A stretch of 64,000 bases of DNA. Source: Unio delphinus (lineage: Eukaryota; Mollusca; Bivalvia; Unionida; Unionidae). Position numbers and translations under genes: made by a program. Below the pieces are notes generated by a model. That model searched no databases, had not been told where the DNA came from, and worked only from the letters and a program-made list of their open reading frames with translations. Location: the NCBI GenBank assembly GCA_029339505.1, contig JAQISU010000022.1:15020001-15084000 (forward strand), read 5' to 3'. Below, in pieces: positions 20,259 through 43,324 of this stretch; within the stretch, counting starts at the first letter, position 1; each line of letters starts with the position of its first letter.

Positions 20259-20361
20259 GTCGAAAATTCTTTGGATTGAAAATTGCTAGCAATGAAAATC
20301 CGTAGATAAATAGTAATTAGAAATTGCTAGCAATTGAAAACACTAGTGTTTTTATAATAAG

Positions 20362-20833: not shown

Positions 20834-20886
20834 TGATTACAAAAAGTTAAAACGCTAGCGTTTCCAATTAAAAACACTAGTGTTTT

Positions 20887-22326: not shown

Positions 22327-22366
22327 TTGAAACTTTATAGCAATTAGATCAATCTGTATTTGTATA

Positions 22367-22783: not shown

Positions 22784-22806
22784 GACTACCAGGAACCCCC
22801 GTATTC

Positions 22807-23325: not shown

Positions 23326-23349
23326 AGAGAAAAAGAGTTTTACAATAAC

Positions 23350-24299: not shown

Positions 24300-24341
24300 T
24301 TCTGACGGGAATTCTTTGAGTTTCATACTAGCATTTCAACG

Positions 24342-25001: not shown

Positions 25002-26195
25002 TATCAGATCAAAATCATTTGGTGGTCAACAACCCAATAATTCACTGGTGTTTGCAAATAAGAATAAAGACGACGGTACCCCAGACTGGAACGTTGTTTC
25101 CATACCAACCGGATCATACCAAATTGAACAAATCAATGCTGAATTGCAACGTAGAATAAAATCGATTACTGGACAAGAATCAAAAATAGCTATAACGGTT
25201 CATGAGCCAACACTATCATCTGCCATTGAAATAAGCACAGAAGGATATGTCGTAGATATATATCAGAGTTCTATTAGAACCGTACTAGGATGGCCTGAAA
25301 TCCCACCCGGGGTGAAAACCGTTGATTTACCAGAACCCAAAAAAAACCGATTATGTCACAGACAGGATAAAATCTGATAATCCAATAAAGAGTTATAAGG
25401 ATCACAGGATTACTATAGAATTTTTTGGTATCCATATCGATATAGGTAGAAAAGAGAAACATCATTTTGTTAACGAATCTAAAATTTTTGAAAATTTCAC
25501 AGCAATAAATAATGATTTTTCACTGTTGTTAATACCTCTTAAATCCGGCTCTCTCACCCGAGATGAATTTATCAGCGTCGTAGAAACATATGCAATAAAA
25601 TTATCGACGATATGGAAAAATTTAATTAGAAAATTATTAAATTATTCAGGGTATATTAGATGATGATGAACCTCTATCGAAAACAACATTTGCAACAGAC
25701 TATAAAATCCCCATCAAAGATATTCCAACATTCAAACTACCAGGATATAACGTACCAGAACTAAAAAAACTTCTCAGTGACACCATCGATATTGGTTTTA
25801 AAATAATTCATGATGCATGGAAAAAAACAACATCACCGGAAATAAAAATCCTGACACATAATAATGACCCAAATGGTGGTGGCAGGCATATCGCTCCGTT
25901 CAACGTGAATATATCCTCGGTGATTGCGCTCAATTTAGTATGTGACGTTATCGAAGGCAGCTATCAAATAAATCTAGAACGATCAAATCAAGCTCAGCAG
26001 GGATATATTCTATATTCATTTGCACCAATAGCCCCTCCAGGATTTCTAATTATTGAGTCTCCGGTGAATCCAGTCTATATGCGATGTCATAATAATTCAT
26101 TAACCAGAATTAATTTCAAACTCACTGACCAGTCCAATAATCTAATTGATCTACAAGGTGAGGTTCTACAAATTAGTCTGTTTGTGAAATCGTAA
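24814..26195 (+). pseudogene. inner penton-like minor capsid protein, two frameshifts
   Basis: Three frames in series: 24814-25377 (NPEFSVNFPSPVPVKEIALA, SYQIEQINAELQRRI, RTVLGWPEIPPG), then to about 25640, then to 26195 (IEGSYQINLERSNQ, PGFLIIESPVN, FKLTDQSNNLIDLQGE). The first shift lies at an A-run near 25342, the second near 25640. A long beta-rich protein with an NAEL block and a closing VLQISLFVKS matches the penton-like single-jelly-roll proteins of these elements, which sit at the particle vertices. Confidence 0.72.
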
Positions 26196-26220
26196 AAGGA
26201 TTTTCATCGTAGTGATCTTC

Positions 26221-26493
26221 ATTATTAACCCAGAACTGAAAGTTCTAGCAGCAGAGGAGGTGAGTGACAACGACGTTGCGACGTTGTATGATGAAGCAAC
26301 GAAAACGCGAATAGAGTATCACCCGCGAAATCTCATGTTTTGAGCAAGAAATCAATAAGGCTCTATTTGCCAAATGGAGACTTATTTTTTTTTGGTTAAA
26401 ACATGAGATTTCGCAGGAAGGCTCTATTTGCCGTTTTGAGGGTTTAATCATATTTTAACCAAAAAAGTTGTAGGATTCACCTCCTCTGCTGCT
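26221..26493 (-). repeat. inner element right TIR, foldback
   Basis: It is the reverse complement of 10237-10512, with about three substitutions and a shorter poly-A tract. It ends ...CTGCTGCT, so on its own strand it begins AGCAGCAG; the left copy begins GGCAGCAG. Confidence 0.92.
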
Positions 26494-26498
26494 ACGTT
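26494..26498. repeat. target-site duplication of the inner element, right copy (ACGTT)
   Basis: It matches 10232-10236. The outer polymerase frame resumes directly after it. Confidence 0.75.
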
Positions 26499-29400: not shown

Positions 29401-29695
29401 CACCGAATGTAAAGTGAAAGGATTGACTCTCAATTATCGCACCAGCCGAGTGGTGAACTTTGACGTGCTTCAAGAAGCCTTACAGTCGGGACAGGATGAA
29501 ACGTTTAAAGTGACTACCCACAAACCGCACAAGATTGTCCGTTTACCCACACACCAAATCGTTAGCCGACCTTTGGAAAAAGTCTATCAAATTGTGTACC
29601 AAAAAAAAGTACGACTTCCCAATCACTTCACTCTACCGTACGGTCACGTCGAAATTGGGCAGCATATAAAAAGGGACATTGTCCAAGACCAATAG
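26494..29695 (+). CDS. POLB: outer protein-primed family B DNA polymerase, zinc cluster, exonuclease and palm
   Basis: 1063 codons open after the inner insertion (first in-frame TTG at 26504; the real start is at 9363). Numbering from 26504: a cysteine/histidine-rich zinc cluster at about 49-160 (YYCEKCDYGY, CPVCQRTF, CPTCGQG, CHICHQ), exonuclease motifs DFE (about 181), FSGYD (about 275) and YCGSDVD (about 399), polymerase motif A LDVCSLYPYV (about 622), motif B KVMLNCLWGKM and motif C YFNTDSCIYI (about 911). The order and size fit a Polinton polymerase. It copies the linear element from a terminal protein primer. All catalytic motifs are intact; only the upstream stop and the insertion inactivate it. 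Confidence 0.95.
29665..29672 (+). promoter_or_regulatory. TATA box of the BIR gene
   Basis: TATAAAAA lies inside the polymerase 3' coding end, 66 bp before the ATG at 29731. Confidence 0.6.
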
Positions 29696-29730
29696 TTCAT
29701 TTGTCACTACACTGACCAAGAAAAAAGAAG

Positions 29731-30279
29731 ATGAATCCATTTAAACAGACATCATTGAAATTTGGGAATTCTCAAGTGGAGTGCGATGCTAAACCTTGGG
29801 ATTGTAGTGATGCCAGACGCTGCGACCTTAGTGATTCAGCAGGATATCGTGGGAACGTTGCTATGACTACTACCCTTATATCTACCCTGGAAAGTGATGC
29901 TGTGCGTGTCAAACCTGAGGAATGCGAAAACGGTGCCACACGTTATTGTGGACTCCTAGGAATTTCACCGTACCTGCATCGAACAGAAGTGAGGAGAGTC
30001 GAATATTCGTTTCCGACAAGTTTGCCTGAATACTGTCACTTTAAAAGTCGATTCCAAACCTTCAAAGATAAATGGCCAAAATATCTGCCTGGACCAACTC
30101 CTGAAGAATTAGCCAGAGCCGGATTTTTCTACTTGGGCGAAGGGGATAAAGTCAAGTGTTTCAGTTGTGGTGTATCCATTTACGAGTGGGAACAGAAAGA
30201 TTCCGCTTACCTGGAACATGCTTGATGGTCTCCGAATTGTCAATACCTACCTTTAGTAGGACATAGTGATTGGAAGTGA
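29731..30279 (+). pseudogene. BIR-domain (IAP-like) protein, stop within the BIR
   Basis: The frame stays open to a TGA at 30223-30225 and continues in the same frame to a TGA at 30277-30279. From about residue 100 it holds a BIR: FKSRFQTFKDKWP, GFFYLGEGDKVKCFSCGVSI (the CxxC pair), then EWEQKDSAYLEHA, with the last zinc cysteine after the stop (WSPNC). H and C spacing follows the BIR consensus. The stop stands where BIRs usually have arginine, so a CGA-to-TGA change is likely. BIR proteins block caspases or regulate NF-kB-type signalling; a role in keeping the host cell alive is inference. No RING domain is seen. The N-terminal 90 residues are not recognised. Confidence 0.85.
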
Positions 30280-30291
30280 CACTGCTGCTTC

Positions 30292-30648
30292 ATGTCGTGT
30301 AACAAACCTAGACCAGTATATAATATAAAACATAATATTCAAGGATTACCACAAGAATTGCAAGAGAAGATCTACAAGGACGTTTGGCAGGGTCTTGCTA
30401 AAGAAAAATCTCATTGGGTGACTGTAGAACTTTTGTGTCGTGAAATTCACAAGAGGAAAGTGACAAAAATTAACCAACGTATTAGATTTCTCTGGATCAA
30501 GGGTATTTTTTTGCTCTGTTTCCAATTTAGTACGTTTACATCTGAAGATGTTTTGATCCTTCTTAACCGTTACCCTGAATGGCAGTGGGACGAAATTACA
30601 CGTTATATTAATCACTTTCGCTTTTGGAGGAGATTTGATTCTCTGTAG
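30292..30648 (+). CDS. unknown 118-aa protein
   Basis: Open frame from ATG 30292, 12 bp after the extended BIR gene. The segment GLPQELQEKIYKDVWQGL resembles the start of an F-box but is too short to call. The rest is aromatic and basic (HFRFWRRFDSL at the end). Codon use is like that of its neighbours. Function unknown. Confidence 0.5.
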   Translation: MSCNKPRPVYNIKHNIQGLPQELQEKIYKDVWQGLAKEKSHWVTVELLCREIHKRKVTKINQRIRFLWIKGIFLLCFQFSTFTSEDVLILLNRYPEWQWDEITRYINHFRFWRRFDSL

Positions 30649-30681
30649 AATATACACTGATGGTCTTCGACAAAAACGAAG

Positions 30682-30689
30682 TATAAAAG
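30682..30689 (+). promoter_or_regulatory. TATA box before the 30699 gene
   Basis: TATAAAAG lies 10 bp before the first ATG at 30699, which is unusually close, so translation may start further down or transcription may begin elsewhere. Confidence 0.45.
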
Positions 30690-30698
30690 AGAACGACC

Positions 30699-31136
30699 AT
30701 GCCACAACCTTTATCACTTGTGATCCAACAGATTCCGTGGAAGGATATCAATAAGAAGATTCACACGGTGAAAGATTACGAACACTTATTACAAGAACTA
30801 TACCCTATGAATTTTAGTCGACGTGTAGTGTGTGTTTTAGTGACTTGCTTTCTGGGATTTCGTTTACCTGTCGATTCCTTGTGGACACTTTACGAACACT
30901 ACCTACTAAAAAAAGACAGTATGGTGGTTCCTTTAAATGTCCACGAGAGACTCATTCTGTTCAAAGCCTTACGCTTTCATCTCAATACGTCTCGACCTCT
31001 ATAAGAAAAAAAGATTCGTCAACTTTTACGTACGGAAGCGGTGTACGAAGATGTGTGTGTAGCTTGTGACTTACACCCTCATTGGACAGATGTACGTAAC
31101 TGGAAAAGTTGGGATTTTGAGGCTTGGACAAACTAA
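30699..31136 (+). pseudogene. unknown protein with one in-frame stop
   Basis: 101 codons to TAA at 31002-31004, then the same frame continues 43 codons (KKIRQLLRTEAVYEDVCVAC and DFEAWTN) to TAA at 31134-31136. The helical, leucine-rich sequence with FSRRVVCVLVTCFLGFRLP is not recognised. The continued coding look after the stop suggests a nonsense change rather than a natural end. Confidence 0.5.
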
Positions 31137-31146
31137 GCATCCCATT

Positions 31147-31515
31147 ATGCCCAAGCGTTGTGTTCCTAAAATACATCATCGAGTGAAAAAAGTCACTTTT
31201 AAACCTGTGTTAGTGACAGTACCAGAAGAAGAAGAGAAAGAATCTGTCACCCAGGACAATCCGTCTGTTCAAGACAGAACTGTCATAGACATTCCCCCAC
31301 AAAGACCCTTTCGAGAAGACACGTATGTGACTGTACCCCATGTAGAGAAGACTATAAGAACATTACACACTACCTCTAGGACACCTTCGTTACCCAAACA
31401 ATGTTGTTCAGTGACTTGTTTATATGCCACGTGGATCGTTTCCCTATGTATTTTATCCCTGTATTTATCCATTTGGCTTTTATGTATAATTGTCTTTCGT
31501 GTTGTTCGAATTTAA
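31147..31515 (+). CDS. tail-anchored membrane protein
   Basis: 122 codons from ATG 31147 (the frame opens earlier but without support). It has a basic head (PKRCVPKIHHRVKKV), an acidic and proline-rich middle, and one strongly hydrophobic C-terminal segment (WIVSLCILSLYLSIWLLCII) ending FRVVRI. This suggests insertion in a membrane by the tail. AATAAA follows at about 31527. Function unknown; small membrane proteins are usual in Polinton virion gene blocks. Confidence 0.6.
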   Translation: MPKRCVPKIHHRVKKVTFKPVLVTVPEEEEKESVTQDNPSVQDRTVIDIPPQRPFREDTYVTVPHVEKTIRTLHTTSRTPSLPKQCCSVTCLYATWIVSLCILSLYLSIWLLCIIVFRVVRI

Positions 31516-31526
31516 ACATGCATTGA

Positions 31527-31532
31527 AATAAA
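31527..31532 (+). terminator. AATAAA polyadenylation signal
   Basis: AATAAA lies 12 bp after the stop of the 31147-31515 gene and just before the next TATA box. Confidence 0.5.
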
Positions 31533-31548
31533 CGTGTCTTGAAAAAAG

Positions 31549-31556
31549 TATAAAAA
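31549..31556 (+). promoter_or_regulatory. TATA box of the packaging ATPase gene
   Basis: TATAAAAA, 60 bp before ATG 31609. Confidence 0.65.
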
Positions 31557-31608
31557 CCTTTTGTCTTGTCTTTTATTTGTGTCAATCGTGTCATACCACT
31601 ACACGACT

Positions 31609-32340
31609 ATGGCTCACTCTGCTATTTCTACTACAATTTCCTCCTCCACATTCAAAGTCATTGACGAACACTTAGATCAGGCTAGTTGGAAAGCCTTGTA
31701 TCTTCGTCATCCTTTTAACATGTTAATTGCTGGACCGAGCGGTTCAGGCAAAACCGAATTTGTCAAACGTTTGATCGAACATAAACATCATTTGATCAAT
31801 CGTCCACCTCAACGCATCGTGTGCTGTTACAAAGAGTGGCAATCGGCATACAGCCTTTTGCAAGAAAGTCAAGGTGATTTCATTGTGTTTGTAGCAGGCA
31901 TTCCTAAAGAAGACGAGGGGATCGTGTCTGACCCTAGTCAAACTCATTGGGTCATTTTTGACGACATGTTAGGAGAAGACCAAGAAGAAATTAAACTGTG
32001 GTTTACACGTAAAGGGCATCATCGTAATGCCAGTGTCATTTACATTACACAAAATTTATTTCAACAAAGTAAAGCCCATCGTACCATTAGTCTCAATGCT
32101 CATTACGTGGTCTTGTTTAAAAGTCCTCGAGATAAATCACAAGTGCAAGTCTTAGCCAAACAGTTAGGAACACCTTGGCTAACTCATGCGTACGATGATG
32201 CCACTCAAACGCCACACGCCTATTTACTCGTGGATTTAAAACCCACCACCCCTGATTATTTACGATTTCGTACCGATTTGTTTCACGACTGGTGCCAGGA
32301 CGGAGGACCTGTCGTGTACACGTTCTCGTCGTCGACATAA
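31609..32340 (+). CDS. ATP: outer genome-packaging ATPase (FtsK/HerA, A32-like)
   Basis: 243 codons from ATG 31609, intact. Walker A is AGPSGSGKT (residues 41-49); Walker B is HWVIFDDM, with acidic residues at 118-119. The sensor-like YITQNLF follows, as in polintovirus and poxvirus A32 ATPases. It should power DNA entry into preformed capsids. TATA and AATAAA signals flank it closely, so it is its own transcription unit. Confidence 0.93.
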   Translation: MAHSAISTTISSSTFKVIDEHLDQASWKALYLRHPFNMLIAGPSGSGKTEFVKRLIEHKHHLINRPPQRIVCCYKEWQSAYSLLQESQGDFIVFVAGIPKEDEGIVSDPSQTHWVIFDDMLGEDQEEIKLWFTRKGHHRNASVIYITQNLFQQSKAHRTISLNAHYVVLFKSPRDKSQVQVLAKQLGTPWLTHAYDDATQTPHAYLLVDLKPTTPDYLRFRTDLFHDWCQDGGPVVYTFSSST

Positions 32341-32363
32341 CCATATGAACCACTAAAAAAATC

Positions 32364-32370
32364 TATAAAA
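32364..32370 (+). promoter_or_regulatory. TATA box of the 32410 gene
   Basis: TATAAAA, 46 bp before ATG 32410, with the same CTATAAAAACCTTG block as the ATPase promoter. Confidence 0.6.
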
Positions 32371-32409
32371 ACCTTGGGTCACTTTGACCCTGTCTCATAC
32401 ATTGTCAAC

Positions 32410-33306
32410 ATGACGTCCCTTCAGTCTCATCTTCCCATCAAATTGATTCGTGCCTTGTACGGTATCAGTAGCGAAAAAAATCCACAAATACGTGCTCACG
32501 TCTTAGAAGCCAGTCTCAAAGAAGTCTTACGATGGTTTACGGTGACAGCACGTCAAATACTGCAAGGCATCATTCACATTCCACATCAAACCAAAGGCTT
32601 TTTTGACAGAAACAAAGTAGCATTGACGCAACTGGCCGATCCTCGCATCGACACTCAAATCAAAAAGCAAAGCATATTGAAACCTGGAGGTAATGGTTCA
32701 CTAGGAGGTGTCATCATTCGTTCCCTTTTAAAATGGGATCCCAATGTTTCCAAAGTTCACCCCAAGAAAACAAAGAAAGCCAAACGAACCCCAAAGAAAA
32801 AGAACAAGGGTGCCAAGACCAAAACGCAGAAAAAGAAAAGTCCACAGAAAAAAGCGGTCACCCGCAAAAGAGGCACTTCGGCCAGGACACAACCTTACAT
32901 TCGTCAAACACGAGCTGTAAGAGAAGATCTACAAGGACGTTTGGCAGGGACTACGTTGCCAGTAGCCACAAGTGGTTCCACTTCTCCGTTGCGGGTGATG
33001 CCAGCCAAACCCAATTTGACACCCGTTTTTCCTAATTTGATGAAACATTGGAAATCTGCGTCTCCCAAAACGTCTCCTCCACCGGTGACACCCTCGTCCA
33101 CATTAGCGTCCGTAGCAGCTGCTCACAAAGTACCTGCCCCCAAAGTCAAAGTCCAAGAAAGATCTGGCATGTTAAAGAGTTTACTAGATTTGTCCAAACA
33201 AGAGCTGTCCCGATTGAGTCCGTTACGAACTCCTTCACGACGTGTGTTACCTGCCATGAAGTTGATACGACGCAATGATAATCAGTGGCGACGCATTCCA
33301 GTATAA
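32410..33306 (+). CDS. basic minor virion protein (Polinton core-type)
   Basis: 298 codons, intact from ATG 32410. A helical N-terminal third ends in ILKPGGNGSLGGVIIRSLLKW, a glycine-rich hydrophobic stretch. It is followed by a lysine-rich block (PKKTKKAKRTPKKKNKG and onward, residues about 115-160), then a proline/serine-rich tail with basic patches. The organisation is that of DNA-binding or cement proteins of polintoviruses; direct function is inferred. Confidence 0.68.
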   Translation: MTSLQSHLPIKLIRALYGISSEKNPQIRAHVLEASLKEVLRWFTVTARQILQGIIHIPHQTKGFFDRNKVALTQLADPRIDTQIKKQSILKPGGNGSLGGVIIRSLLKWDPNVSKVHPKKTKKAKRTPKKKNKGAKTKTQKKKSPQKKAVTRKRGTSARTQPYIRQTRAVREDLQGRLAGTTLPVATSGSTSPLRVMPAKPNLTPVFPNLMKHWKSASPKTSPPPVTPSSTLASVAAAHKVPAPKVKVQERSGMLKSLLDLSKQELSRLSPLRTPSRRVLPAMKLIRRNDNQWRRIPV

Positions 33307-33367
33307 AAATGACTTGAGGACCACACCGGGAATCAGTATTTTCTGTACCACTGCTGAACACTCAAGG

Positions 33368-33598
33368 ATGCTTCCTGAAAAACATGCACACCACCACCAC
33401 TACCACCCTCGTCGTTCTGCTGTCCAAAAAGGAAAAGGAAAAAGACAATCTCGTCATTCCACCAAAAGCTTAAAAACCAAACATCGACGTCATCCCCTCC
33501 AAAGACGTAGACCTTTAAAGAAAAAGAAGAGTCACCAAAAAGGAGAATCCTTTGGCAATTTTGGGAAACACATCGTTACCTTTTTGACGAAGCGCTAG
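33368..33598 (+). CDS. small histidine- and arginine-rich protein (core-like)
   Basis: 76 codons from ATG 33368; the frame opens at 33275 but overlaps the previous gene. It is almost entirely basic (HAHHHHYHPRR, HRRHPLQRRRPLKKKK), suggesting DNA condensation as for adenovirus core proteins. AATAAA follows at 33601. Confidence 0.55.
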   Translation: MLPEKHAHHHHYHPRRSAVQKGKGKRQSRHSTKSLKTKHRRHPLQRRRPLKKKKSHQKGESFGNFGKHIVTFLTKR

Positions 33599-33662
33599 TA
33601 AATAAAAGAGGGTGTGTGCCAAGTTATTGACGTTAGTGACATTGTAGAACGAACAAGTAAAG

Positions 33663-34067
33663 ATGTCACCTCGCAGAAAACATTCTTCTTTACTTCACAA
33701 AGGAAAGAAAAGGAAAGGACTACCTCCTCGTTTAGTCAAACACGGAGACGTGTTGTCTGTCCTGTCCAAAGCCTCTCCATTCATGCGAAAACAAATCATT
33801 AAAACGGCTTCCAAAGATGTTATCGATACGGTGTGCGAATGTTGTTTGAATGTTTTGAAAGGCACGATACCTTTGTCTCCACACCAGAAAAAATGCTTAG
33901 CCAAACATCGACACGTTCTTCGTCGAATGGTCCAAAAGAAAATACCCATCCGTGAAAAGAAAAAAATGTTGATGCAACGCGGCGGACTTTCACCCTTTCT
34001 TGCCATGTTGTTCGCAGGAATAGCAAAAAGTGTGCTAACGAACGCAATGTCAAGTATAACAATATGA
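33663..34067 (+). CDS. conserved Polinton virion protein (KKxL...GG type)
   Basis: 134 codons, intact. The sequence VCECCLNVLKGTIPLSPHQK followed by HRHVLRRMVQKKIPIREKKK and a closing RGGLSPFLAMLFAGIAK is a pattern I know from many invertebrate Polinton/adintovirus copies: a helical basic domain, then a glycine plus hydrophobic tail. Exact role unknown; probably an internal capsid protein. Confidence 0.75.
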   Translation: MSPRRKHSSLLHKGKKRKGLPPRLVKHGDVLSVLSKASPFMRKQIIKTASKDVIDTVCECCLNVLKGTIPLSPHQKKCLAKHRHVLRRMVQKKIPIREKKKMLMQRGGLSPFLAMLFAGIAKSVLTNAMSSITI

Positions 34068-34144
34068 TAAAATGGATGAATCAACAAATGGCTCAAGGAA
34101 TGGGTAGCAATATGTATGATCCTTGCAGAAGATAAAAGGGACTC

Positions 34145-34881
34145 ATGGAGCACCACGAACTCAGACGTAACCTTTGGAATCCCAAGGAAGGACGAAAACT
34201 GACTTTAGTTCCTTACAAACGATGGATGGAATGCCATCGTTGGCAAGAACAACGTACCCCCCCCATTTACCACCCAATCCTGATTTGAACGAGATGTCCC
34301 AATTACAACACGAATTGAAATCTTTGATGCATCGCCACGATTTGTCCGAAACCGAAAAATCGCAAAAGTACGGTCAACTTTTGCAACGACTACAACTCTT
34401 TCATCGAAAAGCTGTGGAACAAACAGCTTTACCTACTCTGTCCGATTTCAAGGCTCTAATGAATAATCCGTCGCCCTTAGCCTCTACAGTGGCCAAAACA
34501 GATGTCACCCTACCATTACCCAAGGAAGAAGAACCCCATGATCTCTTTCAAACACCCACTGCCACTCCCATTCCGAGTAAGATTGCTGCTTCCTTATTGA
34601 CCCCTTCCCCCACTCCCCAACGAGAAGAACTCAAAACTTGGTTTATAAAGATGACGGCTACTCCTTCTTCAACAGAAGTGAAAAAGAAAGAAAGGAAACC
34701 AGAAGTGAAAAAAGAAAAGAAGACCAAAGAAGCTATCCCATTACCTCCGCCACCACCACCACCACCACCAGTACCCTCGACGTCAACTCCTGTGGCACAT
34801 CGGACACGTAAAACCGTTTCCAAACAACCCCTATTTCGTCCCACCCAAAGCAGTATCCTCGAAGAGTGGGTCACTTATTAA
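34145..34881 (+). pseudogene. conserved Polinton gene before integrase, frameshift in C-run
   Basis: From ATG 34145 the frame (LVPYKRWMECHRWQEQR) shifts at an 8-C run (about 34257-34264) into the 34174-34881 frame. The second part has NEMSQLQHELKSLMHRHDL and EKSQKYGQLLQRLQLF, then a proline-rich linker with ten prolines in a row and a basic tail. The QKYxQLLQRL helix is typical of the gene next to integrase in Polintons. Function unknown. A GATAAAAGGG at 34131 may be the TATA box. Confidence 0.7.
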
Positions 34882-34887
34882 CCAAAC

Positions 34888-36000
34888 ATGGAGAAAGTAT
34901 TAGCCAGCATTTACTACGATCCAGCTCACCCTGCAGGTTACGGAGGCATTCAGAAATTGTATCGTGCTGCCAAAACTCGCCTGAAAAAGCTCCGTTTACC
35001 TGCAGTACAACGATGGTTACAAGAACAAGCGACGTACACTTTACACAAACCCATTCGACGAAAATTTCACAGAAGTCGCACTCAAGTGGAAGGCATCGAT
35101 CATCAATGGCAAGCCGATTTAGCCGATGTCTCTCATTTAGCCACCTACAATCGTGGTTACAAATATTTGTTTTGTGTCATCGACGTCTTTTCTAAATTTG
35201 CCTGGGTCGTACCATTGACATCCAAATCGAGCGGAGAGTTAGTACGAGCTTTGCAACTGGTGTTGAAACAAAGTGGTCGTCACCCTCTTCGATGGCAAAC
35301 CGACAAAGGCACCGAATTTCTGAACCAAGCTTTCCAACGAGAATTAAAGAAACGTGACATTCATTTTTTCACCACCGAAAATCCTGAAACCAAAGCCAGT
35401 ATCGTGGAACGTTTTCAACGTACCTTGAAAGAACGCATGTGGAAATATTTTACGCATCAACACACTCTCAAGTACATCGACGTCTTACCGCACTTAGTCC
35501 AAGCCTACAATCAATCTTACCATAGAAGCATTGGACGTGCCCCACAAGAGGTGACACCTGACAACGAAGTGACTGTTTTTGAGCGTCTGTTTGGTACGTC
35601 CCGGACGAGGGCTTTCCCCAAGAAAGGTGGAGAAGTGTTAACCCCGGGAGATTGGGTACGCATTGGTAAAACCAAACGCACGTTCGACAAAGGTTACTTA
35701 CCCAACTGGACCACCGAATTGTTTCGCGTTACTGGACGAGTGCGTGGCCGTCATCCTGCCGTCTATAAATTGGAAGACATGAACGGAGAAGTATTAAAAG
35801 GAACGTTTTACTTGCCTGAGTTACAACGTGTCACCAAAAAAGAAGACGACGTGTACGACATTGAAAGCATTCTCGAACGAAGAACCGGTAAAGTAGGAAA
35901 ACGTCGTGTCAAAGAAGTCAAAGTACGTTGGAAAGGATATCCACCTAGTTTTGATTCTTGGATTGACGCTTCGCAAGTCATCGACTATAAAAAGAAGTGA
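34888..36000 (+). CDS. INT: outer retroviral-like integrase with chromodomain
   Basis: 370 codons, intact. The DDE triad is D77 (HQWQADLADV), D139 (RWQTDKGTEF) and E174 (TKASIVERFQRTLKERM). An SH3-like barrel follows (GDWVRIGKTKRTFDKGY), then a C-terminal chromodomain (residues about 318-366: YDIESILERR, KVRWKGYPPSFDSWI). The chromodomain may steer insertion to marked chromatin, as in chromoviruses. It starts 6 bp after the previous stop. It is probably one of the still-functional genes of this copy. Confidence 0.95.
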   Translation: MEKVLASIYYDPAHPAGYGGIQKLYRAAKTRLKKLRLPAVQRWLQEQATYTLHKPIRRKFHRSRTQVEGIDHQWQADLADVSHLATYNRGYKYLFCVIDVFSKFAWVVPLTSKSSGELVRALQLVLKQSGRHPLRWQTDKGTEFLNQAFQRELKKRDIHFFTTENPETKASIVERFQRTLKERMWKYFTHQHTLKYIDVLPHLVQAYNQSYHRSIGRAPQEVTPDNEVTVFERLFGTSRTRAFPKKGGEVLTPGDWVRIGKTKRTFDKGYLPNWTTELFRVTGRVRGRHPAVYKLEDMNGEVLKGTFYLPELQRVTKKEDDVYDIESILERRTGKVGKRRVKEVKVRWKGYPPSFDSWIDASQVIDYKKK

Positions 36001-36005
36001 CCATC

Positions 36006-36426
36006 ATGCCCTTCAATACAGCTTCAGCAACCACAGTGACTACTCCTTCACCCACGTCATCTCTGCAAGATTTACAAAAGCAACCCTTGTGGGTGTGGTG
36101 TGGAGAACGTGTCCCAAAAAGCGCAAATCGTCTTTTTCTGTCAAATCTTTGTGGTGTATTGTGTTATCGGTGCAGCCATTGCTAATTTGAGTTTGCAGCA
36201 AGGAGACAAACAATTGTGGACTATTTTGCTCAGCAGTTGCATCGGGTATCTTCTTCCTAATCCTTCCCTGAAATACTCTTACAACGGGAACAAAAGTAAC
36301 AATATTGGGAGCCTTGCGTCCAACGTTAGTCATTCTCCTGACAGTCACGCTTCCAATCACAATCCTCTTTTAGACACTCCTTTAACCTCGAGTGACTCCT
36401 CGGACAGAAGAACATTGAAATTATGA
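36006..36426 (+). pseudogene. small membrane protein, frameshift
   Basis: From ATG 36006 (six bases after the integrase stop) a threonine/serine-rich head reaches LWVWCGERVPK. A frame change near 36110-36118 then leads to KAQIVFFCQIFVVYCVIGAA and LWTILLSSCIGYLLPNPSLK, two hydrophobic segments, and a serine-rich tail. The LLSSxxGYLLPNPSLK ending is one I associate with a Polinton membrane protein. Its role is unknown, perhaps in virion entry or assembly. Confidence 0.68.
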
Positions 36427-37356
36427 ACAACACTATTAACCAATTTTACTTAACGTTACCCAGTGACAGTTCCATGAAGGTGTTTCCTAACAACACGTTG
36501 TGCTGTTAGACGGCTAAATTACCTCAAGCCATACATTTGGATCAAGATGCTCATTGGAAAGTGGCTTTAGTGGAAATGATACACCCGACACAAACCAAAA
36601 ACATCGTCGAAAATCAAAACACTTTTACAGTAGAAGTGTTTGACGAGCAATTGCAAGATGCCTTAGACATACGAGGCAAAGGTGGCGAAAAGAAATCATT
36701 TGGACCCACAACTAAAACCCTGTCCACTCATAAATTCCTCATTCCTCCAGGCTATTATTTTAGTGGTCAACATTTAGTGACTACACTTGCTACCATATTC
36801 AATGTTAAGTTTGGTAAAGCCATGGATAAACTATCCCCACCAAATAATGTTACCTTTGAGTACTATCCAGTGGCTCGTCGTCTCATGATCGAATTTTCAG
36901 AGGATGAAATGATAGGCATTACCTTTTGTCCTGAATTGTTTGATATTTTAGGTGGAGACATTGAGTTGCTCAAGAAGAGAAATGAAAAAACAACTCATAG
37001 ACACTAAGGAGAAAGTTGCGAAATTTTTTAAATTCCCTGTAGAATTGAACCAAGGTCTCAACTTGATTTTTGTGTACTCCGATGTGGCAGAGTACAACGT
37101 GGTAGGACACACCTCTGTACCGTTACTGCGTGTCATTCCTTTCAAAGTGGATTCTGTCGTCGCCGCTAACGAGGAAGGTGGAAATACCTATCACGTTCAC
37201 CGTGAATTTGTACATCTTCATTATTTGCCAGTCAGTAAGTCGTATTTCGACAGTGTCAACATTACTACAAAAGGAGAACTAGGACAAAATATTCCATTTA
37301 CCAAAGGGAAAGTCACAGTGAAACTCCATTTTCAAAAACGATTCTCAAACAACTGA
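36423..37356 (+). pseudogene. outer penton-like minor capsid protein, stop and frameshift
   Basis: ATG 36423 overlaps the previous stop. The frame is broken by TAG at 36507-36509, continues in register to about 36985, then shifts to a frame ending 37356. Blocks HWKVALVEMIHPTQ, PPGYYFSGQHLVTTL, GLNLIFVYSDVAEYNVVG and VPLLRVIPF match the beta-rich penton-like proteins encoded just before the pX-like and major capsid genes in Polintons. Confidence 0.78.
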
Positions 37357-37363
37357 AAAAGTG

Positions 37364-37784
37364 ATGTATCCTGTGTACCAAGGAGTCACTCGACAACGAG
37401 GACATGGTTTAGGAGATGTTTAAATCAGCCTTTCGTTCTGTGGTCCCTCTTTTGAAACCAATGGTGACACGAGGAATGCACGCCTTAAAAGATGCCGCAT
37501 TGACTCACGGCAAAGATTTTATCCACAATGTTCTCATTGACAAACAAAACCCCAAAGAAGCTTTTAAGAGAGCAGGCTAAAATGTCTTGCTTCAAACGGG
37601 TAAAGAGATTTTGGGTCGACGAGAAAGTCCTATAAATGCCCTGAACGGTACCGAGTCTGGCATTCCTGCTTCCCTGACGACACAGCAAGGACAAGGTAGA
37701 AAGCGACGACGAAGGCACCCTTTCAAAAGTCTCCGTACCTCTAAAGTTAGAAAGACGAAGAAAAAAAAACTGCTCGAGACTTAG
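37364..37784 (+). pseudogene. outer pX/pVI-like minor capsid protein, frameshift and stop
   Basis: From ATG 37364 the frame reaches a glycine-rich GHGLGDV, then shifts around 37416. The second frame holds AFRSVVPLLKPMVTRGMHAL and is broken by TAA at 37578-37580 before continuing to a very basic end (QGRKRRRRHPF). A glycine-rich start, amphipathic helices and basic tail before the capsid gene identify it as the outer counterpart of the gene at 20362. Confidence 0.72.
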
Positions 37785-37835
37785 ACATTTTTGATTATTA
37801 AAAGTACAAAAATATAGAGACTGAGAGAAAAAAAA

Positions 37836-39160
37836 ATGATGCACCAAGAATCGTGTGCCTGTTCCAAGTCGGAACTAGATCTCTTTGCCATGCCACCCAC
37901 AATGATGACCATGCAAGAAGCCCAATGGGTTGAATTTCATCCCGTCTCCTCTTTGACGGATTCAGCTCCCATCGAGTTTTAAATCAAAGGACAACCCAAA
38001 GATTACATCGATCTCAACAACAGTTACTTGTATTTGAAAGTGAAAGTGGGCAGGACGGACAGCGCCGACCCGCCGGCAGCCGATGCCCAAGTAGCTCTCG
38101 TCAACAATTTCATGCATTCCTTGTTCAGCGAAGTGGATTTGTACATGAATAACAAACTGGTGAGCAGTAGTATGGATACTTACCCTTACCGAGGGTACCT
38201 CGAAAATCTCTTGACGTACGGAAAAGAAGCCAAGAATACTCATTAAGATGCTTGCGTGGTATGGAAACCTGACACCGCAGGTGAAAAAACGTTTAACAGC
38301 ACAGTCCCGGTCGCAGACGAGCGCAATCCTCTCAACGAGGGTTTTAACGAGCGTCGAAAGAAAATTCTGCAAGGACGTAGTTTAGAACTGTTCGATCGTT
38401 TGCATTTGGACATGTGGTTTCAAGAGAAGTATTTGCTAAACGGAGTAGATATTCGCTTGAGACTGAATCGTAACAGTGCTGCTTTCCATTTGATGGCTGA
38501 TACCGGCACATACAAAACCAATATCGACGAAGCCAGGTTATACGTGCGTCGTGTGGAAGTGTTACCTAAAGTGGGAAATGATATCAGTCACACTTTGAGC
38601 AGAACGACAGCCAAGTATCCGATACGCCGCGTTGAAGTCAAAACCTTCACCATTGCCATGGACCTAAGATCCAAGATCGAAGATCATCTGTTCCAAGGAC
38701 AGTTACCCAAACGTTTATTCGTTGGTATCGTCAGCAATGCAGCCTTCAACGGTACCCACAATAAAATCCTTTCGAGTTTAAGCACAACAGAATATCCAAA
38801 ATCGAAGTCAGTCGCGATGGCAAAACTTTGTGTACCAGACCTTTCGAACCCAACTTTACCCAGAAGAATTACTTGAGGTCGTACTTGTCGCTGTACGAAA
38901 CCATAGGACAGTTAAGAACCAACACCAGTCACGGTATTTCCTACGACGATTATGCAGGAGGTTACGCGTTGTGGGGTTTTGATTTCACTCCAGACCAAGG
39001 CAGCGACGAGGGACATTTCCACCCTATAAAATCGGGACAACTGCGTGTGGAACTTCAGTTTGCAATAAATCTTGAAGAAACGGTGAATGTCATTCTGTAT
39101 GCTGAATTCGATAATACCATAGAAATCAACAGTTTGAGAGAAGTCATTCTAGACTATTAG
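37836..39160 (+). pseudogene. MCP: outer major capsid protein (double jelly-roll), two stops and a frameshift
   Basis: From ATG 37836 the frame has TAA at 37980-37982 and 38244-38246, both followed by clear coding sequence in the same frame, and a shift near 38765 into the frame that ends 39160. Blocks DYIDLNNSYLYLKVKVG, FSEVDLYMNNKLVSSS, YPYRGYLENLLTYG, LDMWFQEKYLLNGVD and TFTIAMDLRS match the Polinton hexon-like capsid protein. Length of about 440 codons is usual. This copy cannot make a full capsid protein. Confidence 0.88.
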
Positions 39161-39165
39161 ACACT

Positions 39166-39652
39166 ATGGAAGACCCTTGTCCTTCTTTGAATAGTGGAGA
39201 ATCCATGGAATGGGAGGTTACAGAGAAAGCAGACCCTCAAGACCAAAAAGAAGAAGTAGTGATCATGCAGTCCAGATGGCCAGAACAGGAACAACAATTA
39301 GTTGCCTGTTTTAGAAGATAAAATGAGAGACATGATTAAAAAAGATTGTTATGGATGTCAAATCGATCATCCCAGGCAAATTCAACACGATAAATGTATG
39401 ATGATGAGTCAAGAAGAAAAATTGAACGATTATCTGAACGAAGCATGAAGTCTCATCTCAGAAGAAGCCGTGTTACTTCAGTGGTATAAAGACTTGTGTG
39501 CTCATTCCTCTCCTCCATTGTTTGCTCGAGAAATTGATCGCATCGAAGCTCTCTTGGCCAAGAGTAAAGAGACGAAGCAAACCATCAGTTACTTGTCAGA
39601 CCGTTTCAAGCAAAAAGTCTGGATCGAATTGATGACTTATCATCATCTGTGA
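39166..39652 (+). pseudogene. conserved Polinton gene before protease, frameshift and stop
   Basis: A 51-codon acidic frame from ATG 39166 ends at TAA 39319. A change of frame near 39302 leads to RDMIKKDCYGCQIDHPRQIQ and HDKCMMM, a cysteine/histidine set that could bind zinc. TGA at 39446-39448 interrupts it before a helical end (IDRIEALLAKSKET). The CYGCxxDHPSQxxHxxC pattern is common beside the Polinton protease. Function unknown. Confidence 0.65.
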
Positions 39653-39688
39653 AAAAAAAAGGAAAAAACAAGGCTACACAAGAAAGAA

Positions 39689-40246
39689 ATGGATACCTGG
39701 GAACTTTATTATCTTTTGAACCGTAGTTCGTACACTGCTTCTTGGAATCCTGTCGTGTGTGCTAAAGATGAAGTACCTCATCGCAAACCTCAAGAGAATC
39801 AAGCTTATGTCATCAACACAGATGACAGTCATCTTCCAGGAACTAACTGGGTAGCTGTCTACTTTCCTCAAGAGGGTTGTGTGGAATATTTTGATTCGTA
39901 TGGATTACCCCCTTTCGAAGATGATATCATTGACTTTATGAGAAGAAATGCCCAGACGACACGATTCAATAATGTGAAATTACAAGGCATAGATTCTATG
40001 GTGTGTGGACAATATTGTGTCTATTATCTGCATCATCGCAGTCTTGGATATTCTTTAGAACATTTAGTGACTTATTTTGATCGTCATTCGTCTCGAAACG
40101 ATGACAAAGTAGATAGATGGTTTTGTGACCATTATGGCTATTTGTTGTCTTTAGCTAGGAAACGTAGTGTAAATCAATGGCCCAATGATTTCCAACAGTG
40201 GAAATCTCAATTTAATTCGCAACGTTGTCAACCATGTCAAAGATAA
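39689..40246 (+). CDS. PRO: outer adenain-like protease with His-to-Asn change
   Basis: 185 codons, open. The frame aligns with C5 proteases: the acidic residue lies in VEYFDSYGLPP (D69) and catalytic Cys in SMVCGQYCVYYL (C106). Where the family has His in the PGTHW motif, this copy reads PGTNW (N53, codon AAC). The inner element's protease keeps His. Loss of the general base should abolish activity, so this open frame is probably not a working enzyme. N-terminal NRSSYTASWNPVVCAKDEVP is usual for Polinton copies. Confidence 0.88.
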   Translation: MDTWELYYLLNRSSYTASWNPVVCAKDEVPHRKPQENQAYVINTDDSHLPGTNWVAVYFPQEGCVEYFDSYGLPPFEDDIIDFMRRNAQTTRFNNVKLQGIDSMVCGQYCVYYLHHRSLGYSLEHLVTYFDRHSSRNDDKVDRWFCDHYGYLLSLARKRSVNQWPNDFQQWKSQFNSQRCQPCQR

Positions 40247-40476
40247 TATATTAGTGTTATGGAAGAAAAACATGTTTGTTATTTAAAATGTTTGTTATTT
40301 GAAAAAATTGTGTTTTGTGAGTTGTTTTGTTATTTGAATATAAATGTTGTGTTTTGAAACCAATGCGTCTGTCGTTTGTTTTACATTTGTATTCATATAA
40401 ATGCTCTTTGACTTTTTTTTCTATCCCTCACATCAAACTATCCAAACGTTTCAAAACCCTAAACCGTAGAGGAGTG
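40247..40476. other. intergenic, before first right-end accessory gene
   Basis: AT-rich with repeats of TGTTATTTGAA. No gene is supported. The frame of the next gene is open back to 40327 but contains its promoter. Confidence 0.5.
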
Positions 40477-40563
40477 TTTTCCATCACGTCCGCGCTTGAA
40501 CCATATAAAGCAGGGGTAGTCTCCAGTCTGGTCATCCATTGTTTGACTCATCCTCCTACGAAG
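40477..40563 (+). promoter_or_regulatory. accessory promoter 1 (shared block plus TATA)
   Basis: TCACGTCCGCGCTTGAA begins at 40484, TATAAAG at 40503-40509, and CAGTCTGGTCATCCATTG follows. The same order recurs before the genes at 41323 and (diverged) 42407. Confidence 0.78.
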
Positions 40564-40917
40564 ATGTGCTCAAGACTAGCTAAGCTGAACGAAGCTTACG
40601 TCACTCTGCATCGTATCAGACACAATCTGATGCCAAAGCATGAAGAGATAGAGAATGTGAGAATGCTACATGAAACGGAAGACCTCAAAGAAGAACTCTT
40701 CAAAGAGGAAATTCAAAAAGACAAAGAAGAATGGACTGAGAAGTATCGACTTCAGAAGCAGCAGAGAGAGCAGAGAGAACAGCAGCAGCAACAACAGCAG
40801 CAGGAACCAGACAGAAGTTTTGTCGACTGCCGTGTGGACACGAAAGAGTTCTCTTTCTCTTTCAGAAGAAGCAGACCTTATCCTGTTGCCAGACGAGGAC
40901 GCAATCTTAGACGATAA
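40564..40917 (+). CDS. coiled-coil accessory protein, glutamine-rich
   Basis: 117 codons from ATG 40564, chosen because TATA (40503) lies 61 bp before it. Helical and charged: KLNEAYVTLHRIRHNLM, then KEELFKEEIQKDKEEW, then a run of glutamines (CAG repeats at 40783-40802) and an arginine-rich tail (FRRSRPYPVARRGRNLRR). Unknown function. A histone-type hairpin follows 32 bp after the stop. Confidence 0.7.
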   Translation: MCSRLAKLNEAYVTLHRIRHNLMPKHEEIENVRMLHETEDLKEELFKEEIQKDKEEWTEKYRLQKQQREQREQQQQQQQQEPDRSFVDCRVDTKEFSFSFRRSRPYPVARRGRNLRR

Positions 40918-40949
40918 AAGATTGTCATCCTTCCTCGTACACACAAAAA

Positions 40950-40965
40950 AGCCCTTTTCAGGGCT
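40950..40965 (+). terminator. histone-type 3' stem-loop after the 40564 gene
   Basis: AGCCCTTTTCAGGGCT: perfect 6-bp stem, TTTC loop, preceded by AAAAA and followed by the full ACCCA. CTCGAAAAGAATT lies 11 bases further on, the position of the U7-binding element. Confidence 0.9.
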
Positions 40966-41237
40966 ACCCAATATTCTCGAAAAGAATTAATCATTCAATT
41001 TGCTAATGGTATGTGAGGAAGTTAGAAAAAAAATAGAAGTGAGTCTATAATCACTGTTTCTTTTTACTTTTGTTTGAAGTGCGTCTATAAGCACAAAGTA
41101 TTTTTCAAAATAACTTGTTAAATGTAAAATGTATGTAAGTCAAGTATAAAAGTGAGTGAGTGTTTTCTTTTAAGTCCACGTGTTTTTTTTTTTTTTGGTG
41201 ATGATAGGGATAATGTAAGTTTTTTGGATCTAAGGGT
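40966..41237. other. spacer between accessory genes 1 and 2
   Basis: Contains the purine-rich element after the hairpin and two copies of a GTGAGTCTATAATCAC-like segment (41039, 41080). No gene. Confidence 0.5.
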
Positions 41238-41322
41238 GATTTCCATCACGTCCGCGCATGAACTATATATAAAGAAGCACTCGTCAGTCTGACTACCCAT
41301 CGTTGACGCATCAACACCAAAG
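41238..41322 (+). promoter_or_regulatory. accessory promoter 2 (shared block plus TATA)
   Basis: TCACGTCCGCGCATGAAC begins at 41246, TATATATAAAG at 41264-41274, then CAGTCTGACTACCCATCG. Nearly the same as promoter 1 from TTTCCATCACG through CAGTCTG. Confidence 0.8.
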
Positions 41323-41781
41323 ATGAATAGAGTACAAAAATTAAGAGAACTTCAAATGCATTTGGAGAATGCTAGGCGTCTCCTGGACGAGCTGGCTATG
41401 GAGGCTATAACAGAGCAGGCCAAGATTGAAAAAGAAGAGGAGGAAAGAAAAAAGAAAGAAGAGGAGGAGAAGAAAAGGCCTATCTTACATCACCGCATGA
41501 TGAGACAAACTAGTCGAGTCACAGCCATGGTGAGGACACCTTCGCCACCAGAACCAGTTCGTCCACTACAGACACAAGCCCCACCGCAACAACCACAGCC
41601 TCAGCCGCGGTTACGAAATAGGAGAGTAGAGAGGGAACTTTTCACTATCTCTCAAAGTGAAGACTGGGATAGTGAAGCCAATCATTCTCCCTCTTCGTTC
41701 CCAATCACAAGAGTGAATTGGGAGAATGATTGGAGTAGAAGATGTGTGTGTGGGGCTAGACCTGGGAGATGCCAGCATTAG
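41323..41781 (+). CDS. coiled-coil/proline-rich accessory protein
   Basis: 152 codons. Residues 1-55 form a charged coiled coil (LRELQMHLENARRLLDELAM, then KEEEERKKKEEEEKKR). A proline/glutamine-rich linker follows (PPEPVRPLQTQAPPQQPQPQ), then an acidic/tryptophan end and a CVCGARPGRCQH tail with cysteines. Unknown function. A histone-type hairpin follows 30 bp after the stop. Confidence 0.7.
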   Translation: MNRVQKLRELQMHLENARRLLDELAMEAITEQAKIEKEEEERKKKEEEEKKRPILHHRMMRQTSRVTAMVRTPSPPEPVRPLQTQAPPQQPQPQPRLRNRRVERELFTISQSEDWDSEANHSPSSFPITRVNWENDWSRRCVCGARPGRCQH

Positions 41782-41811
41782 CCAGGTGTATTTTGAAGTT
41801 TAAAAAAAAAC

Positions 41812-41827
41812 AGCCCTTCTCAGGGCT
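41812..41827 (+). terminator. histone-type 3' stem-loop after the 41323 gene
   Basis: AGCCCTTCTCAGGGCT: perfect 6-bp stem, TCTC loop, then ACC and, 11 bases on, CAAGAAAAGAAA, close to the sea-urchin-type CAAGAAAGA U7 site. Confidence 0.9.
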
Positions 41828-41907
41828 ACCAAAATAACAAGAAAAGAAATACTATGTCAATTGCCAATGGGTATGAAAGAGGAGTAGAGTGATTATAAAC
41901 ACTGACT

Positions 41908-41916
<9 letters not shown>

Positions 41917-41958
<42 letters not shown>

Positions 41959-41969
41959 GTGTGTGTGTG
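41917..41969. repeat. (GT)n microsatellite
   Basis: GT dinucleotide run with one interruption (GC). Confidence 0.95.
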
Positions 41970-42300
41970 GTTAGTATATGGTGTGATTTTGGATAGTAAA
42001 TAATAGGGTTTGTTTTTTCTGCTTCCCCATGTGTGTGGTTAGTATATGGTGTGATTTTGGATATTAAATAATAGAGTGTATTTTGGCTGCTTCCCCGTGT
42101 GTGTGTGGTTAATATATGGTGTGATTTTGGATAGTAAATAATAGGGTTTGTTTTGGCTGCTTCCCCGTGTGTGTGTGTGGTTAGTATATGGTGTGATTTT
42201 GGATAGTAAATAATAGGGTTTGTTTTGGCTGATTCCCATGTGTGTCGTTAGTATATGGTGCGATTTTGGATAGTAAATAGTATGGTTTGTGAATAGTATA
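41967..42300. repeat. about 68-bp tandem repeat, five units
   Basis: Units contain GGTTAGTATATGGTGTGATT, then GGATAGTAAATAATAGGG and CTGCTTCCCC. Each begins with a short GT run, so the microsatellite probably seeded the array. The last unit is shortened. Confidence 0.92.
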
Positions 42301-42328
42301 TAATATGAAAATTGAATGTAAGGGGTGT

Positions 42329-42406
42329 TTTCTTTCACGTCCGTGCTTAAGATATATATACGCAATCGTCGGTCCTTGGAGCCATTCAATTTTTGAACAC
42401 ATCAAG
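42329..42406 (+). promoter_or_regulatory. accessory promoter 3 (diverged shared block plus TATA)
   Basis: TCACGTCCGTGCTTAAG begins at 42335 and TATATATA at 42353-42360, 18 bases after the start of the block, the same spacing as in promoter 2. Confidence 0.75.
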
Positions 42407-42982
42407 ATGAATTTCAACTTGTTCATCCAACTCCGAGACAGCTGGTTTGGGATCCTTGATGCAGAATATGAAGTGGAAAGACTTGAGGAAGAATTTCAGA
42501 GTAATCATGGCTTTGTAAGGCAACTGAAATTAGCAAGAGATCTATTAGAAGGTATGATAGAGGAGGAAGACCAGAAATTAAGAAGACGTACTAAAACAAA
42601 ATATATAAGAATAGGGGACTTGAAGCAGGCACTTGATCATGTCATCAAAGTCAGGTGCTTTCTAGAAGAAACATTACATCTGATAGAGTGGGAATATGTG
42701 CAGTGGGGTCTAGACAGGCTAAAGAAAGCAGAAGCAATGATGAGAATGGTAATGGAAGAACAGGTGATCCAGATTAAAGAAAACTGGTCTAAGGAGAGAA
42801 AGGAAAAAAAGAACAAAAAGAAGAAAGAGGACTTTGATCTACTCAATCTAAGATGGATGAGAGTTCAGGAAAAGTTTAGAGCTATGGGACATCCCAATTG
42901 GATTCCCGAGAAAGAAAAGAAGAAGAAGAAAACGGGAATCATTGGTAAAATTAAAAGGTGGTGGAACAACGGCAGAAAATAA
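42407..42982 (+). CDS. coiled-coil accessory protein, lysine-rich tail
   Basis: 191 codons from ATG 42407, chosen because TATA lies at 42353. Helical throughout: EVERLEEEFQSNHGFVRQLK, LARDLLEGMIEEEDQKLRR, EAMMRMVMEEQVIQIKENW, with heptad-like spacing, then KERKEKKNKKKKED and a basic end (KIKRWWNNGRK). No known domain. A histone-type hairpin lies 24 bp after the stop, inside the terminal repeat. Confidence 0.72.
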   Translation: MNFNLFIQLRDSWFGILDAEYEVERLEEEFQSNHGFVRQLKLARDLLEGMIEEEDQKLRRRTKTKYIRIGDLKQALDHVIKVRCFLEETLHLIEWEYVQWGLDRLKKAEAMMRMVMEEQVIQIKENWSKERKEKKNKKKKEDFDLLNLRWMRVQEKFRAMGHPNWIPEKEKKKKKTGIIGKIKRWWNNGRK

Positions 42983-43002
42983 AAGAATAAGAAGAAGTAT
43001 CC

Positions 43003-43324
43003 AAAGGCTCTTTTCAGGCCCACTCATAGGTCTCGAAAAGATATTAGCTTTTCTTTGCCACCATTTTTTCCCTTGTCACTAGACAGTTCCCTATACCCAT
43101 ACAAATCATATTCCCCATGTTCAATTTCCCTTGAGGCTAGATAGGCCCAAATAGTTCCCATGTTCAATTCCCCTTGAGGCTAGATAGACCCACTATGTTC
43201 AATTTCCCTTGAGGCTAGATAGGCCCAAATAGTTCCCCATGTTAAATTTCCCTTGAGGCTAGATGTGCCCAAGCCCTTTTTGACTGGATTTTCCATTGAG
43301 GCTAGAGTGCCCCCTATTACTACT
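43003..43324 (-). repeat. outer element right terminal inverted repeat
   Basis: Reverse complement of 7005-7357 with a few substitutions and one 31-bp unit fewer (five TAGCCTCAAGGG-type copies). It ends TATTACTACT at 43324. Confidence 0.95.
43006..43021 (+). terminator. histone-type 3' stem-loop (right, inside TIR), one mismatch
   Basis: CCAAAGGCTCTTTTCAGGCC and CACTCA: TTTC loop, stem with one C-C mismatch and one T-G pair, then CTCGAAAAGATAT at about 43033. The flank CCAAA before the stem is the classical vertebrate histone flank. The left-end copy of this hairpin has a perfect stem. Confidence 0.75.

Follow-up and report, generated by a model that had tools for sequence, protein, structure and literature searches.

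Histone-type gene ends and promoter elements on the accessory genes of a Polinton in Unio delphinus

The Polinton and its accessory genes

The stretch of the Unio delphinus genome analysed here (64 kb; hereafter the window) contains a complete Polinton insertion of 36.3 kb (Table 1). Core genes of Polinton/Maverick elements are present, namely those for a double jelly roll (DJR) capsid protein, a type B DNA polymerase (PolB), an A32 packaging ATPase and an RVE integrase, and so are the inverted repeats, the AG...CT ends and the 6-bp target duplication, whose flanks were read by eye. The terminal repeats pair 7004-7360 with 43325-43003 at 88.5% identity. A candidate for the adenovirus-type protease (22807-23325) matches Peptidase_C5 at 16.6 bits, under the cut-off of 21.3. 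The capsid protein has its best named relative in the freshwater mussel Sinanodonta woodiana, at 67% over 77% of the query. The element thus resembles known Polinton/Maverick elements and adintoviruses in its capsid, PolB, ATPase, integrase, inverted repeats and 6-bp duplication, and differs from them in accessory genes that bear histone-type ends and promoter elements.

Several other features were seen within the element or its flank. Two inverted copies of a palindromic, MITE-like repeat of roughly 270 bp (10238-10512 and 26221-26492) give weak matches to miRNA families, under the gathering scores. Between these repeats sit a second integrase-core ORF (11749-12408; 32.1 bits, just under the cut-off of 32.6) and a helicase-like gene on the minus strand (12899-15280), which may represent a nested element or an additional module. 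An HNH endonuclease ORF occupies 16572-16943, and a gene with a BIR (inhibitor-of-apoptosis) domain (29731-30225) lies directly 3' of PolB. A 246-bp sequence is present in inverted copies (93%) in the left flank of the window (2-247) and ahead of gene B (40026-40270), and a TG microsatellite with imperfect repeats of roughly 60 bp, identified by eye, separates genes C and D (41913-42310).

Table 1. Features of the Polinton and of its accessory genes, with positions in the window.
Feature	Position	Strand	Remarks
Polinton element, 36.3 kb	7005..43324		complete insertion (6-bp target duplication, TIRs, core genes); termini AG...CT
Target-site duplication TATGAA, 6 bp	6999-7004 and 43325-43330		flanks read by eye
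Left terminal inverted repeat	7005..7360		inner edge at left-end hairpin
Right terminal inverted repeat	43003..43324		inner edge at gene D hairpin
Major capsid protein (double jelly roll)	21172..22326	+	Pfam DJR-like_dom, 68 bits
DNA polymerase B	26825..29695	+	Pfam DNA_pol_B_2, 147 bits
Packaging ATPase (A32-like)	31609..32340	+	
Integrase with chromodomain	34888..36000	+	
Left-end gene, small basic protein	7334..7618	-	frame crosses hairpin in window
Left-end gene hairpin, perfect 6-bp stem, TTTC loop	7342..7357	-	Rfam Histone3, 35.0 bits (7318-7362)
GAAAAGA of left-end gene	7322..7328	-	13 nt past hairpin
Accessory gene A, 212 aa, coiled coil with basic tail	7838..8476	+	divergent to left-end gene
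Gene A hairpin	8510..8525	+	Rfam Histone3, 29.3 bits (8505-8550)
GAAAAGA of gene A	8540..8546	+	14 nt past hairpin
Promoter element of gene B (TTTTCCATCACGTCCGCGC)	40477..40495	+	histone-type
Accessory gene B, 117 aa (from inner ATG)	40564..40917	+	
Gene B hairpin, outer pair A-T	40950..40965	+	Rfam Histone3, 35.4 bits (40945-40991)
GAAAAGA of gene B	40979..40985	+	13 nt past hairpin
Promoter element of gene C (TTTCCATCACGTCCGCGC)	41240..41257	+	histone-type
Accessory gene C, 152 aa	41323..41781	+	
Gene C hairpin, TCTC loop	41812..41827	+	Rfam Histone3, 33.2 bits (41807-41851)
GAAAAGA of gene C	41841..41847	+	13 nt past hairpin
Promoter element of gene D (TTTTCTTTCACGTCCGTGC)	42328..42346	+	histone-type
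Accessory gene D, 191 aa, helical, lysine-rich	42407..42982	+	relatives found; structure model
Gene D hairpin, one mismatched pair (C-C)	43006..43021	+	Rfam Histone3, 19.8 bits (43001-43045)
GAAAAGA of gene D	43035..43041	+	13 nt past hairpin

The left-end protein has a pI of 11.3 over its first 92 residues; its frame runs across the hairpin in the window, as the earlier note on this DNA had described, and ends ahead of the hairpin in some other copies. The model of protein D is a helix bundle (mean pLDDT 69.9) for which viral and solved structures gave no fold match at E <= 0.001, and the model of protein A shows a coiled coil together with disorder (mean pLDDT 63.2). The search for relatives returned 19 for protein A, and most protein relatives lie on short contigs. 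No LxCxE motif occurs in A, C, D or the left-end protein. A histone-like accessory protein was considered and is not supported: a Pfam profile scan of proteins A-D gave no histone match, and by this measure A-D do not encode histones.

Histone-type signals at both gene ends

In the histone pathway, the stem-loop binding protein SLBP and the U7 snRNP bring about cleavage just past a hairpin; no poly(A) tail is added, SLBP mediates export and translation, and the message decays at the end of S phase. The purine element of histone genes pairs with U7 snRNA. This combination of stem-loop and U7 is regarded as nearly private to histone genes in animals. The earlier note had proposed that the same arrangement is present at five genes of the Polinton, each with a 16-nt hairpin built on a 6-bp stem. 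All five hairpins are found where that note had placed them and four have the perfect stem, but the hairpin of gene D contains a C-C mismatch in the window copy; it is fully paired in other copies. The comparison with the Rfam Histone3 model (RF00032, gathering score 34 bits) that the note had suggested was carried out, and the model matches all five gene ends, two of them above the gathering score and three under it (33.2, 29.3 and 19.8 bits). The purine element, expected 10-18 bases downstream, starts 13 or 14 nt past every hairpin, and the plus-strand hairpins do lie shortly past the stops, at 23-33 nt for genes A-D, the mismatched hairpin of D being the one at 23 nt.

The combination is rare by chance. 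Using a pattern that requires a 6-bp stem (G-U allowed), a TYTH loop, an AC flank and GAAAAGA within 32 nt, four sites were found on the two strands of the window versus none in 200 first-order Markov sequences of window length; when GAAAAGA was dropped from the pattern, the window held six sites versus a Markov mean of 1.12. No further hairpin with GAAAAGA was found elsewhere in the 64 kb. The 3' ends of 28 ORFs, hand-picked from 43 and consisting of A-D plus 24 others, were also compared, and none of the 24 has a hairpin within 300 nt. AATAAA or ATTAAA is absent within 300 nt of the stop for A, B and D, and C has ATTAAA at 282; the absence of a poly(A) signal does not set the accessory genes apart, because 15 of the 24 other ORFs also lack one.

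The left-end and gene D hairpins lie at the inner edges of the inverted repeats, a position that would suit signals acting on DNA, for example as marks for recombination or replication. We consider such a role very improbable, given that the other three hairpins are internal, after genes A, B and C, that all five share the orientation of the gene that precedes them, and that what they match, flank included, is an RNA model.

The host histone genes provide a positive control. In the host genome searched (2.505 Gb), one contig starts with tandem 6.8-kb repeats that carry H2A, H1, H3, H4 and H2B, and each of these five genes is followed by a hairpin of the same type and then by a GAAAA element. 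Four of the five hairpins score above the Rfam cut-off and that of H4 was recognised by pattern only. The hairpin-to-element spacing is 14, 14, 13, 13 and 13 nt for H2A, H1, H3, H4 and H2B, compared with 14, 13, 13, 13 and 13 nt for Polinton genes A, B, C, D and the left-end gene, and the stop and the hairpin are 29-38 nt apart in the host histones versus 23-33 nt apart in A-D. No canonical poly(A) signal is present within 300 nt for the five host histones. When the host histone and Polinton gene ends are aligned, the two sets are hard to distinguish. The agreement with host histone genes in sequence, order and spacing bears out the proposed likeness to replication-dependent histone 3' ends.

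This likeness also bears on a viral alternative. Mimiviruses and their virophages follow a 'hairpin rule' for polyadenylation, and Polintons are relatives of virophages, so that the hairpins might be polyadenylation signals of this type. The Polinton hairpins are, however, 6-bp, G+C-rich structures that have a TYTC loop and are accompanied by a separate element downstream, as in the host histone ends, and the 24 other ORFs checked are devoid of them, which leaves a hairpin-rule signal scarcely credible.

The resemblance is not confined to 3' ends, and the promoter element of B, C and D is an addition to the earlier observation. Upstream of a TATA-like stretch, these three genes carry the sequence TTT(T)C-NN-TCACGTCCG. 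The core TCACGTCCG occurs at three sites in the window, all before accessory genes and none elsewhere on either strand, versus a second-order Markov mean of 0.21 (maximum 1 in 100 runs). Inspection of the host histone repeat reveals a nearly identical element to TTTC-NN-TCACGTCCG, TTTTCAATCACGTCCGC, at three sites: upstream of H1, upstream of H2B and, in reverse orientation, some 178 bp ahead of H2A. The 6.8-kb repeat would be expected to hold 0.01 such sites (second-order Markov mean). Host H4 has the related sequence TTTTAGGTCCGCG, and none was seen for host H3. Genes B, C and D have histone-type anatomy at both ends.

Gene A and the left-end gene, which are divergently arranged, have TATA-like boxes and no TCACGTCCG element. 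Their lack of a histone promoter element would be in keeping with signals that serve SLBP-dependent stability and translation without a poly(A) tail, for example during infection or stress of the cell, rather than S-phase timing, and a 3' end alone does not establish timing. The presence of the host histone promoter element on B, C and D points instead to the same regulon as that of the host histones, and we regard a role restricted to stability and translation as unlikely, if by no means far-fetched.

Persistence of the signals in other copies

The earlier note had taken absence of the hairpins from other copies as evidence against its proposal. Instead, they are present in other copies, including copies chosen by their PolB gene. 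From 10,882 first-look candidates, at least 48 PolB copies were scored, the window included, each with an identity of at least 95%; a stop is absent from 45 of these 48, and 43 have PolB in an open frame of 1361 residues, compared with 1073 in the window. The Polinton family appears to be young and abundant on the strength of these copies. From the first eleven rows of this set we took six copies (L076-L081), the hairpin playing no part in the choice; the rows passed over were the window itself, one whose open frame is shorter and three that contain a stop. In each of the six, 3.5 kb were read at the expected position. A perfect hairpin followed by GAAAAGA is present in all 15 readable ends, five for each of the genes B, C and D. 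One stretch contained D alone, and the D end of L081 falls in a run of N. This is the least biased of our conservation tests, and since the copies are close kin (best matching blocks 89-99.9% identical), the 15 intact ends are not 15 independent tests.

Gene B is 86-87% identical in all five of the stretches that include it, and protein D is 95% identical to that of the window in three copies and 55-56% identical in the other three. Across the six copies gene D thus occurs in two forms, while B and C are much alike and the D promoter is identical, a pattern that resembles an exchange of modules at the right end. The left halves seem to differ as well: in three PolB-anchored copies the region from -20.5 to -7 kb relative to PolB contained neither gene A nor the left-end gene nor a terminal repeat of the window type, and neither A nor the left-end gene was present in twelve stretches (L082-L093) taken from the upstream side of PolB in five copies.

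The promoter element persists alongside the hairpins. In five PolB-anchored copies, TCACGTCCG precedes B in 5/5 and D in 5/5, whichever form of D is present. At gene C, the TATA-proximal element is altered at a single base in 5/5, and three have an exact copy further up. Among 30 loci of the B type, the window included, 17 show the near-exact promoter pattern upstream of B and 22 upstream of C, and in one of them (L051) the element has the host form, TTTTCAATCACGTCCGCG. Older copies, 121 kb in total, hold five exact TCACGTCCG sites, each upstream of a gene D match, out of 26 decayed loci with such a match.

The same 30 loci were obtained with a 101-bp query holding the B hairpin (40 scored of 1078 first-look candidates), and the retention of the B hairpin in 30 of 30 is hence ascertained. 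The C end, 862 bp from the B hairpin in the window, is reached in 16 of these loci, in which gene C copies are 77-87% identical at the DNA level. The full C stem and GAAAAGA are kept in 15 of the 16 rows, window included, and the remaining one departs within the loop. Mean pairwise identity at the C ends reaches 0.90 in the hairpin and 0.91 in the purine element; it is 0.75 in the spacer before the hairpin, 0.52 between hairpin and element, and, further downstream, 0.81 and 0.56. Conservation as high as that of the hairpin is also seen in the final 82 nt of ORF C (0.946).

Covariation points to maintenance of the paired structure. In 12 Polinton rows, which were selected for having hairpins, four of the six stem pairs are altered on both sides, a result reached in 9 of 500 shuffles, and 98.6% of cells are paired versus 90.3% in shuffles (0/500). 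Sliding the stem partner abolishes the signal, and a set of 18 rows that includes six host rows likewise shows compensatory changes at four of six pairs.

These data can be set against the view that a host histone 3' end was captured once and then duplicated among accessory genes and copies as a functionless relic. Hairpins do decay in old copies: among older copies ascertained with the Rfam model, five of nine C ends are perfect, three have one bad pair and one has two (two of the nine were read by eye), and loci containing gene A keep a perfect stem in two of nine, the rest being altered, lost or not reached. Genes A and C also have, as judged by eye, a common sequence just past the purine element, which could reflect such a duplication. 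A relic is nevertheless difficult to reconcile with intact hairpins at every readable end of the six PolB-anchored copies, including the three with the divergent protein D, with compensatory changes at most of the stem pairs, or with a spacer that varies between a hairpin and an element that are both kept, and we judge this explanation improbable.

A genome-wide Histone3 search returned at least 74 matches (75 scored of 434,796 candidates) and cannot be used as a count; for this reason the conservation figures were drawn from the C ends and the PolB-anchored copies. In the first 30 loci of that list, no histone motif was matched and 27 have an accessory-gene match; one of the 30 (L009) has a weak match of 43 residues to H2B. 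Later loci include the host histone cluster (L061) and a lone H2B (L072).

Outside the host genome, scans with PolB, a capsid alignment and a gene A alignment gave no relative, and four matches to the hairpin pattern in viral contigs, which have no Rfam support, were taken as chance. One environmental relative of protein A (P0048; JGI and ENA sources), among the 16 of the 19 relatives that were aligned, is 64% identical to A in the alignment and 59% in the search for relatives, and has a tail beyond the usual end. Back-translated by hand, this tail would fit, at the amino-acid level only, a 6-bp hairpin with a THTC loop followed 13 nt on by GARAARAGR, and the window's gene C, in one frame, yields a similar string.

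A predicted link to the host histone regulon

The hairpin observation is confirmed and is stronger than had been claimed. We consider it very likely, from sequence comparison, that this Polinton family has terminal accessory genes organised in the manner of host replication-dependent histone genes and predicted to undergo histone-type processing, because their signals agree with those of the host in sequence, in order and in spacing, are located on accessory genes and persist in other copies. By analogy with the host genes, the accessory genes probably yield non-polyadenylated, S-phase mRNAs. The broader proposal, which we hold with moderate confidence, is that they are enrolled in the host histone regulon through both promoter and 3' processing and give rise to non-histone, non-polyadenylated S-phase mRNAs, possibly at histone locus bodies.

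A mechanism can be outlined on this basis. At least three accessory genes begin at a TATA-type promoter that bears the host histone promoter element, and this common element would tie their transcription to the host histone regulon. Each of the short genes stops some 30 nt ahead of a histone stem-loop, to which host SLBP would bind, and the purine element 13-14 nt further on would be bound by the U7 snRNP, the pairing with U7 being predicted from the likeness of GAAAAGA to the host histone element. The mRNA would be cut a few nucleotides after the hairpin and would not be polyadenylated. The accessory proteins would then arise in S phase, when the Polinton's own DNA polymerase could also work. 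A second benefit may be prompt termination ahead of the terminal repeats, suggested by the position of two hairpins at the inner edges of these repeats.

The genes described here share with animal replication-dependent histone genes the stem-loop, its flank, the purine element, the spacing and the short distance from the stop, and B-D share a promoter element with the host histone cluster. They differ in that the products of A-D are non-histone by Pfam and the genes reside in a mobile element. In the open-access literature searched, we found no paper linking histone 3' ends to Polintons or adintoviruses. The nearest precedent is section 16 of a 2025 survey (PMC12220804), which lists six 'histone 3'UTR stem-loop' hits in a collection of PLVs and virophages and leaves them uncommented there. 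These hits represent the same kind of RNA feature in related virus-like elements and lower any claim of first sight; that section gives a count alone, with no gene, host comparison, promoter or mechanism. Virus-encoded histones, such as the H4 of bracoviruses and the histones of Marseilleviridae and medusavirus (PMC10145014), are, as described in that source, another meeting of viruses with histone biology, in which the histone protein itself is encoded, in contrast to the regulatory signals only that are present in the Polinton.

The combination of stem-loop, purine element and promoter box provides a signature with which other Polintons and adintoviruses can be screened. If the proposed processing takes place, it would explain how RNA data selected for poly(A) could miss Polinton transcripts, and the five non-histone genes on a mobile element would constitute a natural test of what the signal requires. 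Polinton transcripts may then compete for SLBP and U7 snRNP, which is possible because the family appears abundant in the host genome. The findings suggest that this Polinton borrows the histone switch that animals use during DNA replication, and, if so, a virus-like element would be linked to S phase.
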